Shown here: positions 1,217-8,535 of the stretch, piece after piece
How the letters are laid out: every line of letters starts with the position of its first letter
How positions within the stretch are numbered: position 1 is the first letter of the stretch
Source: an uncultured Pseudomonadota bacterium
GTDB taxonomy: Bacteria; Myxococcota_A; UBA796; SXON01
Assembly: GCA_903921785.1 (NCBI GenBank)
Contig: CAIXRH010000213.1
Span: 1 to 37,912 of the forward strand
DNA length: 37,912 nt
Reading direction: 5' to 3'
Program-made: the position numbers and the translations under genes
The notes under the pieces: generated by a model
What the model saw: the letters and a program-made list of their open reading frames with translations, nothing else
What the model was told of the DNA's origin: nothing
Databases searched by the model: none

Positions 1217-1245
1217 TTGACGCCCGTCGGCGGCAAGACTATGAC
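1217..1245 (+). promoter_or_regulatory. Candidate sigma-70-type promoter of the ISC operon
   Basis: TTGACG at 1217-1222 and TATGAC at 1240-1245 are separated by exactly 17 bp, a standard vegetative promoter layout. The transcription start would fall near 1252, inside the palindrome at 1244-1265, giving a very short leader to the ATG at 1268. The spacer is 17 bp rather than the stretched 19-20 bp typical of MerR-activated promoters, which argues for simple repression. Confidence 0.6.
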
Positions 1246-1265
1246 TCTCACGTTCACGTAAGAGT
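1244..1265. promoter_or_regulatory. 22-bp palindrome, candidate MerR operator
   Basis: The sequence reads ACTCT-C-ACGT-TC-ACGT-A-AGAGT. The 5-bp outer arms and the inner ACGT pairs are perfect inverted repeats, and 18 of the 22 positions are symmetric. Dyads of this size are typical operators for MerR-family dimers. It overlaps the proposed -10 element and start point and ends two bases before the ATG of the MerR gene. Binding here should block transcription, so I infer autorepression of the ISC operon. Confidence 0.65.
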
Positions 1266-1267
1266 TG

Positions 1268-1771
1268 ATGTCGGACCCTGCCCAGACCCTGATGCGCATC
1301 GGCGTCCTCGCGGACAAGGCCGGGCGTACGCAGCGCACCCTGCACTTCTACGAAGAGCTGGGGTTGCTCACGCCGGTCGGGCGTACCAAGGGCGGTTTTC
1401 GGCTCTACGACCAGGACTCGCTGCTGCGCATCCACTGGATCAGCCGGCTGCAGGACATGGGCTTCTCGCTCCCGGACATCCAGGAGTTCCTCGAGCAGCT
1501 CCGCTCCGCGCAGTCCGCCCCGGCGATGATGCAGTCGCTCGAAGACTTCTATGCCTCCAAGCGTGACGAAACGCGCACCCAGCTCGAGCGGCTCCAGTCG
1601 CTCGACCGGGAGCTCGCCTCCGCGCTGAACTACCTCGCCGGCTGCCAGACCTGCGCTCCCGCCACCGAGAAGTCGGCGTGTGGGAGCTGCGAGGAGGGGG
1701 AGCACGCCGAGGTGGAGGCCCCCGCGCTCGTGGCCGCCGTGCGCGAACCCCAGCCCCACCCGGATACCTGA
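1268..1771 (+). CDS. MerR-family regulator with CxxC-x8-CxxC, heads ISC operon
   Basis: The protein has 167 residues. It has a MerR winged-helix domain (about 9-76) with the signature [11 protein letters not shown] and [11 protein letters not shown], then a helix that would form the dimer coiled coil (about 88-123). The C-terminal tail has cysteines 126, 129, 138 and 141 in a CxxC-x8-CxxC arrangement. Four cysteines after the coiled coil recall SoxR, which carries a [2Fe-2S] cluster, although SoxR spacing differs. The gene ends one base before iscS, so they are almost certainly cotranscribed. By position it replaces the usual Rrf2-type IscR. I infer that it senses Fe-S status or metal and controls the operon through the palindrome at 1244-1265. 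The start could also be the TTG at 1265 or the ATG at 1292. The MerR family is certain; the ligand is not known. Confidence 0.85.
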
Positions 1772-1772
1772 G

Positions 1773-2996
1773 ATGGCCCTGAAGCTCCCCATCTACCTCG
1801 ATAACCACGCCACCACCAAGGTGGACCCGAAGGTTCTCGACGCGATGCTCCCCTACCTCACCGAGGTGTTCGGCAACGCCGGCTCGCGCAACCACTCCTT
1901 CGGGTGGTCGGCGCAAGAAGGCGTGGAGCGGGCGCGGGAGCAGGTGGCCGACCTCATCGGCGCCGACCCGAAGGAGATCGTCTTCACCTCGGGCGCCACC
2001 GAGTCCGACAACCTCGCCATCTTCGGCGTCGCCCACTTCTACAAGGAGAAGGGCAAGCACCTCGTGACCCAGGTCACGGAGCACAAGGCCGTGCTCGATG
2101 CGTGCCACGCCCTGGAGAAAGAAGGCTTCGAGATCACCTGGCTCCCGGTGGACAAGGAGGGGATGGTCAACCCGGCCGACGTGCGTGCCGCCATCCGCCC
2201 CGACACCATCCTGGTCTCGATCATGTGGGCCAACAACGAAGTCGGCACCATTCAGGACATCGCCGCCATCGGCGCGATCTGCCGGGAAAAGGGCGTCTTC
2301 TTCCACTCCGACGCCGTGCAGGGTATCGGCAAGCTCCCGTTCGACGTGGCGAAGATGAACGTCGACATGGTGAGCATCTCCGCCCACAAGATGTACGGGC
2401 CCAAGGGCATCGGCGCGCTCTACGTCCGCCGCGGCCGCCCCCGCCTGCGCCTGGAGCCCACGATGTTCGGCGGCGGCCAGGAGCGCGGCCTCCGCAGCGG
2501 CACCCACGCCGTGCACCAGATCGTCGGCCTCGGCGCCGCCTGCGCGGTGGCGAAGGAGGCCATGGCCGCCGGCGAAGCCGATCGCCTCCGCGCCCTGCGC
2601 GACCGCCTCTGGAACGGCCTCCAGGCCAACCTCGACGAGCTCTACCTCAACGGCAGCTGGGAGCACCGCCTCCCCGGCAACCTCAACGTGAGCCTCGCGT
2701 TCTGCGAGGGCGAAGCGATGATGATGGCGATCAAGGAGCTCGCGGTGAGCTCCGGCAGCGCCTGCACCTCGGCCTCGCTCGAGCCCTCCTACGTGCTCCG
2801 CGCCATGGGCGTGGACGTGGAGCTCGCCCACACCAGCATCCGCTTCGGCATCGGCCGGTTCACCACGGAAGAAGAGGTCGACTTCGCGATCCAGCTCGTC
2901 ACCGAGAAGGTGCGCTGGCTCCGCGAGATGTCGCCGCTCTACGAGATGGTGAAAGAAGGCATCGACATCAAGTCCATCGAATGGGCGGCCCACTAG
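1773..2996 (+). CDS. iscS: Cysteine desulfurase IscS
   Basis: This 407-residue PLP enzyme takes sulfur from L-cysteine as a persulfide, yielding alanine, and passes it to IscU. The N-terminus [11 protein letters not shown] is typical. The PLP lysine is Lys206 in [10 protein letters not shown], and the persulfide cysteine is Cys331 in [10 protein letters not shown]; both match IscS spacing. The C-terminus (SIEWAAH) resembles the IscS tail that contacts IscU, which favours IscS over NifS or SufS. The start is one base after the regulator stop, with no separate strong ribosome-binding site, suggesting translational coupling. Confidence 0.96.
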
Positions 2997-3013: not shown

Positions 3014-3418
3014 ATGGCGTACAGCAACAAGGTCATCGACCACTACGAGCACCCCCGCAACGTCGGCTCGCTCGACAAGAACGCGGAAGACGTGGGCACC
3101 GGCCTCGTGGGCGCCCCCGCCTGCGGGGACGTGATGAAGCTCCAGCTCCGGATCAACGACGACGGCATCATCGAAGATGCCAAGTTCAAGACCTTCGGCT
3201 GCGGCTCGGCGATCGCGTCCAGCTCGCTCGTCACCGAGATGGTGAAGGGCAAGACGGTGGAGTACGCGCTCTCCATCAACAACTCGATCATCGCCGAGGA
3301 GCTCAAGCTCCCCCCGGTGAAGATCCACTGTTCCGTCCTCGCCGAGGATGCCATCAAGGCCGCGATCGCCGACTTCAAGAAGAAGAAGGCCAGCCGCGCA
3401 GCCGCCACCGCGGAGTAG
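3014..3418 (+). CDS. iscU: Iron-sulfur cluster scaffold IscU
   Basis: This 134-residue scaffold is where [2Fe-2S] clusters are built from IscS-derived sulfur. The three ligand cysteines are Cys37 (PACGD), Cys63 (FGCGS) and Cys106 (IHCSV), with the conserved Asp39. The LPPVK motif at 99-103 is the known docking site for the chaperone HscA, and hscA is present downstream, so the set is consistent. GGGAG at 3004-3008 gives a good ribosome-binding site for the ATG at 3014. The tail is lysine- and alanine-rich and slightly longer than the enterobacterial protein. Confidence 0.96.
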   Translation: MAYSNKVIDHYEHPRNVGSLDKNAEDVGTGLVGAPACGDVMKLQLRINDDGIIEDAKFKTFGCGSAIASSSLVTEMVKGKTVEYALSINNSIIAEELKLPPVKIHCSVLAEDAIKAAIADFKKKKASRAAATAE

Positions 3419-3421
3419 GTC

Positions 3422-3760
3422 ATGGCCATCGAGCTCACCGAGCGTGCGGTCGGCCGCATCAACGAGCTGAAGAAGAAGCGGCAGACGCCCGAACACGTCT
3501 TCCGCATCGGGATCAAGGGCGGGGGCTGCTCCGGCTTGTCCTACTTCGTGGACTTCTCGCCGAAAGCCGAGGAGAAGGACAAGGTCTTCGCCTTCGGGCC
3601 GGACGAGGGGAAGGTGACCGTGGTCATCGACCGGAAGTCCTACCTCTTCCTCAACGGGACGATCATCGACTGGAAGTCCGAGCTGATGAAGACGGGCTTC
3701 GAGTTCATCAACCCGCTCGCCAAGACCAGCTGCTCCTGCGGGGAGAGCTTCACCGTCTAG
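3422..3760 (+). CDS. iscA: A-type Fe-S carrier IscA
   Basis: This 112-residue HesB/IscA-family protein is thought to carry iron or Fe-S clusters from the scaffold to apo-proteins. The three conserved cysteines are Cys36 in GGGCSGLSY and Cys104/Cys106 in the C-terminal SCSCGESF. It starts three bases after the iscU stop and lies between iscU and hscB, the canonical ISC order, so IscA is preferred over ErpA or SufA. Sequence alone cannot fully separate these paralogues. Confidence 0.93.
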   Translation: MAIELTERAVGRINELKKKRQTPEHVFRIGIKGGGCSGLSYFVDFSPKAEEKDKVFAFGPDEGKVTVVIDRKSYLFLNGTIIDWKSELMKTGFEFINPLAKTSCSCGESFTV

Positions 3761-3773
3761 GTCGGGAGCGTCG

Positions 3774-4352
3774 ATGGCCTCCAATCGTTCTGTCTGCTTC
3801 TCCTGCCGAGAGCCGGTACACGCGCCGTCGTGTGTCGGCTGCGGTGCGTTGCAGCCCCCGCCGCCCACGCCCGATCCGTTCGAGCTGTTCGGCCTGCCCC
3901 ACCGCTTCCACGTCGACGTGTCCGACGTGGACGCGAAGTACCGCGCCATCGCCCGCTCTACGCACCCGGATCGGTTCACCACCCGTCCGGCGGTGGAGCG
4001 GCGGATGTCCCTGCAGTGGACCGCCGCGCTCAACGAAGCGAAGCGGGTGCTCAAGGACGACCGCCTCCGCGCCCGTTGGCTCGCGACGGGCCGCGCCACC
4101 GCGGCCGAGGACGCCCGCCGCCAGATGGACCCGGCGTTCCTCGCCCAGATGTTTGAGTGGCGCGAAGCCGAGGAGGAGTCCCCTGGCTCCACCCACGCCG
4201 AAGCCGCCGCCGCGCGCGACGCCCTCCTCGCGGAGATCGACGCCGCCTTCACCGCCTGGGAGGCCGGCACCGGCACCCTCGATCACGTCGAGGACCGCCT
4301 CCTCCGTCTCAACTACGTCGAGGGGCTCCTGCGCCCCGCTCCGGAAGCCTGA
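3774..4352 (+). CDS. hscB: J-domain co-chaperone HscB with N-terminal Cys4 knuckle
   Basis: This 192-residue protein is the J-protein partner of HscA and delivers IscU to it. The HPD tripeptide that stimulates the Hsp70 ATPase is at 64-66, and the C-terminal helical part (about 110-190) would bind IscU. The first 23 residues carry Cys8, Cys11, Cys20 and Cys23, two CxxC pairs forming a likely zinc site. Enterobacterial HscB lacks this, while eukaryotic HSCB has a comparable N-terminal tetracysteine motif. GGGAG at 3764-3768 supports the start. It is followed three bases later by hscA. Confidence 0.92.
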
Positions 4353-4355
4353 CCC

Positions 4356-6182
<1,827 letters not shown>

Positions 6183-6183
6183 C

Positions 6184-6588
6184 ATGGGTAAAAACCCCTA
6201 CATGCACGACGAAGCGCCGCCGCTCCCCACGCGCCCCTACCGGATCACGGTCAAGGGCACCGACGTGGTGCTCGAGGTAGACCCCGCGAACCTGCCCGAG
6301 GCCGATCACGGCCAGGAAGGCTCGATCCTCACGATCCTCATGGCCGCGCACGTCGACCTGGAGCATGTCTGCGGCGGCGTCTGCGCCTGCTCCACCTGCC
6401 ACGTCTACGTCACGAAGGGTTTTGCCACGGCGAACGAAGCGACCGACGACGAGCTCGACATGCTCGACACCGCGCCGGCCCTGAAGGCCACCAGCCGCCT
6501 CGCGTGCCAGTGTGTGCCGAACGGCGAGAGTGACATCGAGATCGAGGTCCCGAGCTGGAACCGGAACGCGGTGAAGGAAGGGCACTGA
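6184..6588 (+). CDS. fdx: ISC-type [2Fe-2S] ferredoxin
   Basis: This 134-residue adrenodoxin-type ferredoxin supplies electrons for cluster assembly on IscU. The cluster ligands follow C-x5-C-x2-C (Cys63, Cys69, Cys72) with the fourth at Cys108 in RLACQ. It has two extra cysteines, Cys67 inside the loop and Cys110 after the fourth ligand. The N-terminus is about 15 residues longer than usual; an alternative start is the ATG at 6202. It begins one base after the hscA stop and is the last gene of the operon. No iscX follows. Confidence 0.93.
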
Positions 6589-6594
6589 GGCGGC

Positions 6595-6610
6595 GGGCGG
6601 CTACCCGCCC
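6595..6610. terminator. Hairpin between convergent fdx and radical SAM genes
   Basis: GGGCGG (6595-6600) pairs with CCGCCC (6605-6610) around a 4-nt loop, in the 12-nt gap between two converging genes and running into the end of the minus-strand gene. It could act on both transcripts. There is no T-tract, so termination is only suggested by position. Confidence 0.4.
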
Positions 6611-7815
6611 CACCCCTCCTCTACCAGCTCGAACCTCCCGAAGTCGTACGGCTCTCCCGCCGCCTTCACCACCTGCACCAGCCGCTCGCGCTTCCCGGCG
6701 CGCTTGAGCGTCGCCGCGCGGTGGTAGCAGAACGGGTTGTTGCCCCGCCGCCCCAGCGTGGTGTGCGCGGTGAAGTTGCAGCCCGCGTGGCAGACCTCGG
6801 CGTACGCGCAGGTCCGGCAGAAGCCCCAGAGGTCCTCAACGGTGCGCTCGCGCGCGAAGCGCATCAAGGGCTGGTTCAACCACGCCTCCCGCACCGACTG
6901 GTCGAGGATGTTCCCCGCCCCGTAGGGCGCCGTCGGCAGCGACGGGCAGGCCTTGATCGTGCCGTCGGACTCGAGGCTGAGCACCGCGATGCCCGCCGCG
7001 CACCCGCTCCAATGCGCCGAGCTCCCGCCCGGACGCGAGCGCAGGAGCTCCTCGTGCGGACCGAAGTAGCCGATGTTGTTCCCGGGCTGGAGGTCGAAGG
7101 TCCGGTCGGGGAAAGGGAGCTCCCAGGGGCGGGGCTCGGCGACCGCGCGCTTCTGGATCTCCGCGAGGGTGTCGATGACCTGGAGGATGTCCCACGGCTG
7201 GAGGATCCACTCCGGGTGGTCCGCCGCGTTGCCCATCGGCACGGTGAGCTGGGCTCGCCAGTAGCGGACCTGACGGTCGCGGAGCGACTCCACGTGTTCG
7301 GCGAGCAGGTGTTTGTTGAGCCGGTTCACCTGACAGTTGCTGGAGACGCCGAGGCCCGCCTCCCGGGCGTTGTCGATCGCCCGCATCGCCGCCGCCCAGC
7401 TCCCTGTGTTTCCCCGGAGCTGGTCGTGCACCGCCTCGGGCCCGTCGATCGAGACCCCGATGCCGAACATCCCCGCGGCCTTGAGCGCCCGGGCCCGCGC
7501 CGCGGTCAACGCCCGACCGCCCGTCTGCATCGTCACCACGACGCCCGCGCCGGCGAGCGCGCGGACGATCTCGTCCAGGTCGGCGCGGAGGTACGCTTCG
7601 CCGCCGATGAGGGTGATCTCCCGAGCGCCCAGCTCGGCGAGTTGTTTCGCCACATCGAGGCACTCGGCGGTGCTCAGCTCCCGGTGGCGGGCCGCACCGG
7701 CGCGGCTTCCGCAGTGGGTGCACGGTTGGTCACAGCGCAGCGTGAGCTCCCACACGACGTAGATCGGGGTGGGGGTCTGTTCGGGATCGAAGGTCCGGCG
7801 CGTAGAACGTGGCAC
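6601..7815 (-). CDS. Radical SAM/SPASM-domain protein
   Basis: This 404-residue protein starts at a GTG. The radical SAM [4Fe-4S] motif is CDQPCTHC (Cys28, Cys32, Cys35), with the SAM-contacting GGE at 71-73. The C-terminal part has seven further cysteines (272, 290, 333, 336, 342, 346, 363) in the SPASM pattern that binds auxiliary Fe-S clusters. SPASM enzymes commonly modify peptides (PqqE, RiPP maturases) or act as sulfatase maturases. The gene is divergent, with a 44-bp gap, from two small cysteine-bearing paralogues (7860-8535), which are possible substrates or partners; that link is inference. A role in cofactor synthesis or enzyme maturation is equally possible. The family call is firm; the substrate is unknown. 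Confidence 0.9.
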   Translation of the reverse strand: MPRSTRRTFDPEQTPTPIYVVWELTLRCDQPCTHCGSRAGAARHRELSTAECLDVAKQLAELGAREITLIGGEAYLRADLDEIVRALAGAGVVVTMQTGGRALTAARARALKAAGMFGIGVSIDGPEAVHDQLRGNTGSWAAAMRAIDNAREAGLGVSSNCQVNRLNKHLLAEHVESLRDRQVRYWRAQLTVPMGNAADHPEWILQPWDILQVIDTLAEIQKRAVAEPRPWELPFPDRTFDLQPGNNIGYFGPHEELLRSRPGGSSAHWSGCAAGIAVLSLESDGTIKACPSLPTAPYGAGNILDQSVREAWLNQPLMRFARERTVEDLWGFCRTCAYAEVCHAGCNFTAHTTLGRRGNNPFCYHRAATLKRAGKRERLVQVVKAAGEPYDFGRFELVEEGWGG

Positions 7816-7828
7816 GCCGTGAGCGTAG

Positions 7829-7837
7829 CGTGTATCC
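7829..7837 (-). promoter_or_regulatory. GGATACACG element before radical SAM gene
   Basis: On the minus strand this reads GGATACACG, 13 nt before the GTG at 7815. It matches the element before the FKBP gene exactly. On the plus strand the same bases include TATCCT, which could serve as a weak -10 for the small-protein pair. Both roles are inferred. Confidence 0.35.
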
Positions 7838-7859
7838 TGGGGGCTGCCGAGGACCTCCG

Positions 7860-8201
7860 ATGAGCAAGCTTGTCCCGTGCGCCAGCTGCGGCGCCCACCT
7901 GATCGCCGGGAGCTGCCCGTCGTGTGGCGCCGTCGCCGCGCCCGCGCTCCCCACCGCCAGCCGCTCCGTCGCGGCCGCGCTCCTCGGCCTCGCCCTCGTG
8001 GGGTGCTCCACCTCCACGGACACGCCCCAGGCGCTCTACGGCGCGGCGATGCAGGACGAGGATGGCGACGGTTTTCCGCCGCCTGACGACTGCAACGACA
8101 ACGACGCGTCCATCCACCCCGGCGCCACCGAGACCGCGGGCGACGGCGTGGACTCCGACTGCGACGACCAGGACGACCCCGCCGACTCCGGCGGAGCCTG
8201 A
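7860..8201 (+). CDS. Small knuckle/lipobox/MopE-motif protein, copy 1
   Basis: I do not recognise a named function. The protein has 113 residues in three parts. A Cys4 knuckle comes first (Cys7, Cys10, Cys19, Cys22; C-x2-C-x8-C-x2-C). A hydrophobic stretch (about 37-48) then ends in the lipobox-like LVGC (Cys49). Last is one aspartate-rich motif (about 66-101, including DEDGDG and DCNDNDASIHPGATE) of the MopE-type putative metal-binding family, and the tail is DSGGA. If Cys49 is lipidated, the knuckle lies in an unusually long 48-residue leader that would be cleaved off. GAGG at 7849-7852 supports the start. It is one base from its paralogue at 8203 and divergent from the radical SAM gene. 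Confidence 0.8.
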   Translation: MSKLVPCASCGAHLIAGSCPSCGAVAAPALPTASRSVAAALLGLALVGCSTSTDTPQALYGAAMQDEDGDGFPPPDDCNDNDASIHPGATETAGDGVDSDCDDQDDPADSGGA

Positions 8202-8488
8202 CATGACGCTCGTCCCCTGTCGTGTTTGTGGGGCGCACGTCGTGGCGGGCGTCTGTCCCAGCTGCGGCGCCACCGGCGGCGCCCGGCGCACCGCCACCGC
8301 GGTCTTCCTCGGGCTCGCGATGGCGTCCGCGCCCGGCTGCATCATCCAGGCGGCCTACGGCGTCGCGTTCCAGGACGCCGACGGCGACGGGCACAACGTC
8401 CCTGGCGACGACTGCAACGATAACGACGCGTCCATCCACCCCGGCGCCACCGAGACCGCGGGCGACGGCGTGGACTCCGACTGCGACG
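8085..8488 (+). repeat. 82-bp near-identical repeat within the two small genes
   Basis: Positions 8085-8166 and 8407-8488 match at 81 of 82 bases; the one difference is C at 8099 versus T at 8421. They encode the same motif core in both proteins. The rest of each gene has diverged much more, which suggests recent gene conversion or strong constraint on this segment. Confidence 0.85.
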
Positions 8489-8535
8489 GCTTCGACAATC
8501 CCGCTGCCGACACGGGCGACTCCGGCGGGGCCTGA
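8203..8535 (+). CDS. Small knuckle/lipobox-like/MopE-motif protein, copy 2
   Basis: This 110-residue paralogue of the preceding protein has the same order of parts. It has a knuckle with Cys6, Cys9, Cys18 and Cys21, a hydrophobic stretch (about 31-45) ending in APGC (Cys46), and an aspartate-rich MopE-type motif (about 58-96, DADGDG then DCNDNDASIHPGATE). The tail is ADTGDSGGA. The site before Cys46 is a poorer lipobox than in copy 1 because of the proline, so this copy may remain membrane-anchored or use another signal. GGAG at 8193-8196 precedes the ATG, and the two genes are one base apart, so they form an operon. Function unknown; calcium or other metal binding is the likeliest property of the C-terminal part. 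Confidence 0.8.
   Translation: MTLVPCRVCGAHVVAGVCPSCGATGGARRTATAVFLGLAMASAPGCIIQAAYGVAFQDADGDGHNVPGDDCNDNDASIHPGATETAGDGVDSDCDGFDNPAADTGDSGGA

Follow-up and report, generated by a model that had tools for sequence, protein, structure and literature searches.

Feedback control of the isc genes is known from IscR of Escherichia coli and other bacteria and from RisR of Myxococcus xanthus, both of which belong to the Rrf2 family. The isc locus of M. xanthus lacks a regulator gene; RisR is encoded by the suf operon and represses isc, with a footprint that takes in the start site of isc together with most of its -10 (PMC9973013). Among the genes that IscR represses are erpA in E. coli (PMC5040110) and nfuA in Pseudomonas aeruginosa (PMC6084964). 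A review lists IscR and SufR as the main regulators of Fe-S assembly and does not use the term MerR (PMC8593673). No MerR regulator of isc is described in the titles and abstract openings of the open-licence literature that we searched.

Promoters of the MerR family usually have a 19-20-bp spacer that holds the palindrome (PMC9909328, PMC1526738), and a cysteine stands at the start of the dimerisation helix in ZntR (Cys79') and MerR (Cys82') (PMC9909328). MerR-type repressors with operators over the transcription start site and the -10 have also been described, namely CvkR at PtnsB, HnoC and McdR (PMC9938897). The locus studied here lies in a stretch of 37,912 bp, called the window below, in which a merR-family gene heads an isc operon, merR-iscSUA-hscBA-fdx (Table 1). 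The ATG at 1268 is aligned in relatives of the genus, and a TTG at 1265 is in frame too. Beyond the operon, at 6601-8535, the minus strand encodes a protein that is radical-SAM-like, judged by eye from a CxxxCxxC-type motif. Facing it on the plus strand, at about 7809-8535, are two small proteins that are related and carry DxDGD-type repeats and a CxxC pair.

Table 1. Features of the promoter region and the merR-isc operon in the window.
Feature	Position	Strand	Basis
-35 box TTGACG	1217-1222	+	Sequence; 22 loci, selected for it, have TTGAC 27 bp before the dyad
Promoter spacer, 17 bp, without operator, unconserved	1223-1239	+	Mean 0.51 bits per position in 22 loci
-10 box TATGAC	1240-1245	+	TATAAC in many relatives
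Putative 22-bp operator dyad, ACTCT-C-ACGT-TC-ACGT-A-AGAGT	1244-1265		Kept upstream of orthologous operons
Predicted transcription start	1252	+	Inferred from the -10, about 7 nt after it, near the dyad centre
merR-family regulator gene, 167 aa from ATG 1268	1268-1771	+	PF13411, PF00376 and PF09278 above cut-offs
Codons of the four-Cys segment C-x2-C-x8-C-x2-C	1643-1690	+	Four Cys in 85/86 orthologues; after model helix 76-117
iscS, cysteine desulfurase	1773-2996	+	NCBIfam TIGR02006 above cut-off
iscU, scaffold	3014-3418	+	NCBIfam TIGR01999 above cut-off
iscA, A-type carrier	3422-3760	+	TIGR00049 above cut-off; IscA equivalog itself below its own
hscB, co-chaperone	3774-4352	+	Pfam PF07743 above cut-off
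hscA, chaperone	4356-6182	+	TIGR01991 above cut-off
fdx, ISC-type ferredoxin	6184-6588	+	Best NCBIfam TIGR02007 below cut-off; Pfam Fer2 above

An earlier note on this DNA had placed a 22-bp dyad over the TATGAC -10 of the operon promoter, and its coordinates and boxes match the sequence. Indeed, ACTCTCACGTTCACGTAAGAGT is exactly 1244-1265, nine of its 11 position pairs are complementary (the exceptions being 6/17 and the central 11/12), and its first two bases are the last two of the -10. The inferred start would leave a leader of about 16 nt. A generic promoter scan (9/12, with T demanded at the last -10 position) gave no match, because TATGAC ends in C. The symmetry of the dyad is by itself not beyond chance, since 22 stretches of 22 bp with at least nine pairs, this one included, occur in the 37.9-kb, 71% GC window; its significance comes from conservation, which is decisive.

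The regulator protein was found in 47 of 112 related genomes (E <= 1e-15), with iscS directly downstream in 46 of these. When named genomes were scanned with an alignment of 36 sequences and the best 80 loci were kept, 79 of these had iscS downstream; the titles of these loci are mostly Deltaproteobacteria or Myxococcota bins, together with Nannocystis, Enhygromyxa and Plesiocystis. Four records (L057, L060, L065 and L066), titled Klebsiella pneumoniae or Bifidobacterium breve, hold a merR-isc locus near the window's own, and their names look wrong. Removal of 39 loci with identical MerR core sequences reduced 130 loci to 91, and five without iscS linkage (L047-L050 and L114) were set aside; one of the 86 linked loci had less than 150 nt upstream, which left 85 to be scored. 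The consensus upstream of merR-iscS is ACYCTnACGTnnACGTnAGRGT (18 scored positions). The earlier note had proposed conservation of the dyad upstream of orthologous operons as its check, and this check came out in favour of the dyad: at least 14/18 positions matched within 220 nt upstream in 81 of the 85 loci, a count that is partly circular as the consensus had initially been drawn by eye from these loci, while the same regions reversed reached at most 13 and the iscS coding sequence at most 12. Within 330 nt, 84 of the 85 loci scored at least 14/18. In 22 loci with the geometry of the window, a group selected on TTGAC 27 bp before the dyad, mean information per position was 1.83 bits for the -35, 1.50 for the -10 and 1.61 for the dyad; the spacer had 0.51 bits and the stretch after the dyad 0.37.

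Because the pattern came by eye from those loci, we ran whole-genome scans as an independent and fairer test. At no more than one mismatch, the 112 relatives yielded 35 sites in 31 genomes and the reversed pattern none. By coordinate comparison, 31 of these sites lie upstream of merR (at one, G008:C309, merR is broken by the contig end), three upstream of cysM and one upstream of a NifU-domain gene. Such a site was present in 31 of the 46 genomes with merR-isc vs none of the 66 without it. When the sample was widened to 377 genomes of the phylum, the 112 relatives included, 57 sites were found in 53 genomes, against six sites in four genomes for the reversed pattern. These 57 comprise 51 before merR-iscS, three before cysM, one before a NifU-domain (nfuA-like) gene, one before a merR paralogue and one that is intragenic; the 22 beyond the relatives account for 20 of the merR-iscS sites, the paralogue and the intragenic site. 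The intragenic site, in G229, falls within a gene that has Radical_SAM and BATS domains and was taken as chance, and the two-mismatch sites in G096 and G017, which lie within long ORFs, were left unused, as was that in G005:C58. In the genome of the window itself, the dyad at 1244-1265 is the sole site without a mismatch, and the whole-genome site scan predicted none beyond that of isc; a site with two mismatches on contig C85 of this genome, around which no high-GC3 ORF was called, was given no weight. A merR paralogue found in one family (L241 and L047) has this type of operator too but no iscS nearby, and after it comes a gene for a sigma-70-type (ECF-like) factor.

The layout of the promoter was also compared across loci. 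The earlier note had pointed to a spacer of 17 bp, where the palindrome of a classical MerR activator would sit in one of 19-20 bp, and the window's spacer length recurs in 49 of 76 orthologous loci with a TTGAC box vs about 10 expected from shuffles (ties broken at random), the counts for 19 bp (8 vs 10.8 expected) and 20 bp (2 vs 10.6) showing no such excess. The placement of the site downstream of the spacer likewise holds among relatives: 55 of 84 loci have a promoter with a 16-18-bp spacer and the dyad at or after the -10, and L116 alone shows the classical activator layout, TTGACC-19-TAGAGT with the dyad in the 19-bp spacer. A further 28 of the 84 fit no promoter class under the rules applied, and the layout is not uniform, since TTGACA stands only 7 bp before the last dyad in L095, L101, L109 and L115. 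A second dyad (threshold 13/18) occurs in 31 of 85 loci, sometimes just before the -35, and in L088-L090, L104, L111 and L128 it is 134-160 bp further upstream than the proximal dyad; a phasing of paired dyads was considered, and as spacings are scattered from 25 to 160 bp we claim no pattern. Since the 17-bp spacer and a dyad at or after the -10 hold across orthologues, repression is likely the better prediction than activation, which is what the earlier note had argued against DNA-twisting activation. CvkR at PtnsB offers a close parallel, with a palindrome overlapping the start site and -10 of a promoter with a 17-nt spacer, although its targets are CRISPR-associated transposon genes (PMC9938897). 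The targets of CvkR, HnoC and McdR all differ from those of the window regulator, and the comparison covers family and operator position.

In sequence, the dyad resembles the ZntR site, which is also a 22-bp palindrome with outer arms ACTCT...AGAGT (PMC1526738). However, the ZntR site lies inside a 20-bp spacer and differs in its inner part. The inner ACGTnnACGT of the window dyad has a counterpart in the LiuR site, which has an ACGTnnACGT-like core. LiuR is a MerR protein of another pathway, branched-chain amino acid utilisation (PMC5343134).

The protein itself has the marks of the MerR family, with an N-terminal winged helix-turn-helix above the curated cut-off (PF13411, 58.9 bits vs 21.6, 5.3e-16; PF00376, 41.9 vs 28.2; PF09278, 38.1 vs 25.4), followed in a predicted model by a long dimerisation helix at 76-117. 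The mean pLDDT of the model is 91.3, and about 72-73 around the cysteines; its structural matches are CadR, PbrR, CueR and SoxR (2zhh: Z 12.2, rmsd 4.4 over 114 residues). No Rrf2 family appears among the Pfam or NCBIfam matches of the regulator. Four NCBIfam models fell short of their cut-offs, with ZntR the best NCBIfam match by score (62.1 bits vs 167.95) and CueR (54.3 vs 147.4), CadR-PbrR (48.2 vs 151.45) and SoxR (TIGR01950, 47.8 vs 116.9) below it. The regulator shares with SoxR the MerR fold and four cysteines after the dimerisation helix, but the SoxR motif is CX2CXCX5C (PMC8063818) vs CX2CX8CX2C here, and the window operator, unlike that of SoxR, is outside any long spacer. Thus, by motif and family score, the regulator is a four-Cys MerR protein and not SoxR. 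All four cysteines are kept in 85 of 86 orthologues and a histidine lies near or after the fourth in 78, while no cysteine occurs at positions 59-115 in any of the 86, so that the ligand which ZntR-type and MerR-type metal sensors have at the start of the dimerisation helix is missing. Since CX2C-x8-CX2C follows this helix in nearly every orthologue, Fe-S sensing through it is likely, and a cluster is the natural guess for the ligand because the targets are Fe-S genes.

These targets may extend beyond isc. A dyad of at least 14/18 was found upstream of cysM in nine of 30 loci (30 of 34 matches were fetched), and both controls reached at most 12. Upstream of an nfuA-like (NifU-domain) gene it occurs in four loci of one family, 23 having been scored (30 of 46 matches were fetched, seven of them with too little upstream sequence); two more at 14/18, L220 and L227, apparently lie within the preceding gene by eye and were not counted. 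In one Enhygromyxa genome, a site with two mismatches and a TTGACC promoter precede erpA, whose product scores 122.7 bits vs a cut-off of 117. The site G009:C12 sits after a gene, and a terminator was ruled out there as cysM comes next. The window's own genome has no cysM relative at E <= 1e-60. We therefore predict a small regulon of isc, cysM, the nfuA-like gene and erpA in some relatives; as judged from predicted sites, it joins isc with Fe-S carrier genes as an IscR- or RisR-like regulon does, and it would converge on that of IscR since both erpA and nfuA are repressed by IscR. At L147:330-1909 (G005), the gene after cysM gives desampylase-like (JAMM) matches and ubiquitin-like-modifier matches, all below cut-offs.

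Among the 112 relatives, IscU was above its cut-off in 57 and SufB (E <= 1e-60) was found in 43, whereas the 46 genomes with merR-isc have IscU in 43 and SufB in two. This might suggest that the MerR protein excludes SUF, but SufB is absent from the 14 ISC genomes lacking merR-isc as well, so that the pattern reflects ISC vs SUF and is no evidence on MerR. Thirteen of these 14 operons, counted by the IscU cut-off, could be scored (the stretch in G037 lacks iscS), and none has the dyad, all 13 scoring 11-13, which is the background level. In six of them, from one family (L156-L161), a Rrf2-like gene stands directly upstream of iscS by eye, and the search matched it at no fewer than three of the six places; the other seven, from two families, have neither merR nor a Rrf2-like gene. 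Given this Rrf2-like gene in a sister family and RisR in M. xanthus, the MerR protein appears to be a non-orthologous replacement of IscR/RisR. In relatives with SUF instead of ISC (G048:C72, G032:C1 and others), a Rrf2-like gene lies just upstream of sufB.

Taken together, we consider it quite probable that the regulator is an autoregulating MerR-family repressor of Fe-S cluster biogenesis with the dyad at 1244-1265 as its operator. It is very likely, on comparative grounds, that the dyad is bound by the MerR protein of the first operon gene; that it represses is likely, and that it has an Fe-S ligand and responds in the direction given below is moderately likely. A MerR dimer at this site would lie over the transcription start and the last bases of the -10, and RNA polymerase would therefore be blocked at a normal promoter with a 17-bp spacer, so that merR-iscSUA-hscBA-fdx would be autorepressed. 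The form with a cluster on the four C-terminal cysteines may repress while the Fe-S supply is adequate, and loss of or damage to the cluster under iron or oxidative stress may free the operator and induce the machinery; a release of this kind, following a change in the state of the sensor, is plausible. The feedback logic would be that of IscR and RisR, carried by a different protein family, and in some relatives the same operator would also control cysteine supply (cysM) and cluster carriers (the nfuA-like gene and erpA).

Alternatively, it is possible, with a smaller though real chance, that the same MerR-type repressor binds zinc or another metal through the four-Cys segment or senses thiol oxidation, the signal then being metal or redox stress. 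Indeed, CX2C-x8-CX2C with a following histidine in most orthologues could equally bind zinc, CadR, PbrR and CueR are as close in fold as SoxR, and ZntR gives the best NCBIfam score, far below its cut-off as it is; however, the region where ZntR has Cys79' (PMC9909328) is free of cysteine in all 86 orthologues, and the predicted targets all serve Fe-S clusters or cysteine, with no efflux gene among them. Classical MerR activation, with DNA distorted at a second promoter that has gone unrecognised and has the dyad in its long spacer, would agree with the typical mode of the family (PMC9909328) and with the arrangement in L116, but we regard it as unlikely, given that only this one locus of 84 has the classical layout, that the -35 and -10 conserved upstream are 17 bp apart, and that the region downstream of the dyad, where the -10 of such a promoter would fall, carries 0.37 bits per position on average.

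That a different regulator binds the dyad and the adjacency of merR is coincidental would be harder still to reconcile with sites in 31 of the 46 merR-isc genomes and in none of the 66 others, with the site before a merR paralogue unlinked to iscS, and with arms that match the 22-bp ZntR site form, ACTCT...AGAGT (PMC1526738); on these comparisons we think it very improbable. We give hardly any credence to a chance palindrome or to a hairpin of the leader RNA. A hairpin fold does exist for the leader and the window holds 22 equally symmetric dyads, but the fold z-score of -0.09 indicates no excess stability, 15 of 84 sites oppose C to A at positions 3/20, transcription is predicted to start within the dyad, and the dyad is conserved.

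The repressor layout of MerR proteins is already known from HnoC, McdR and CvkR; what is apparently undescribed is a role in Fe-S biogenesis. Although control of Fe-S assembly in bacteria beyond IscR and SufR is largely open, we lean slightly towards the view that in ISC-dependent Myxococcota-type bacteria the Fe-S master regulator is a cluster-sensing MerR-family repressor with a CX2C-x8-CX2C segment and an operator at the -10 and start. Being neither Rrf2 nor SufR, it would represent a third family in the feedback loop, and its regulon of isc, cysM, the nfuA-like gene and erpA would converge on that of IscR. This raises the question of how a family whose members are best known as DNA-distorting activators came to repress in this role. 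The conserved operator, the small predicted regulon and the cultured hosts (Nannocystis, Enhygromyxa and Plesiocystis) make such a non-Rrf2 solution directly testable.
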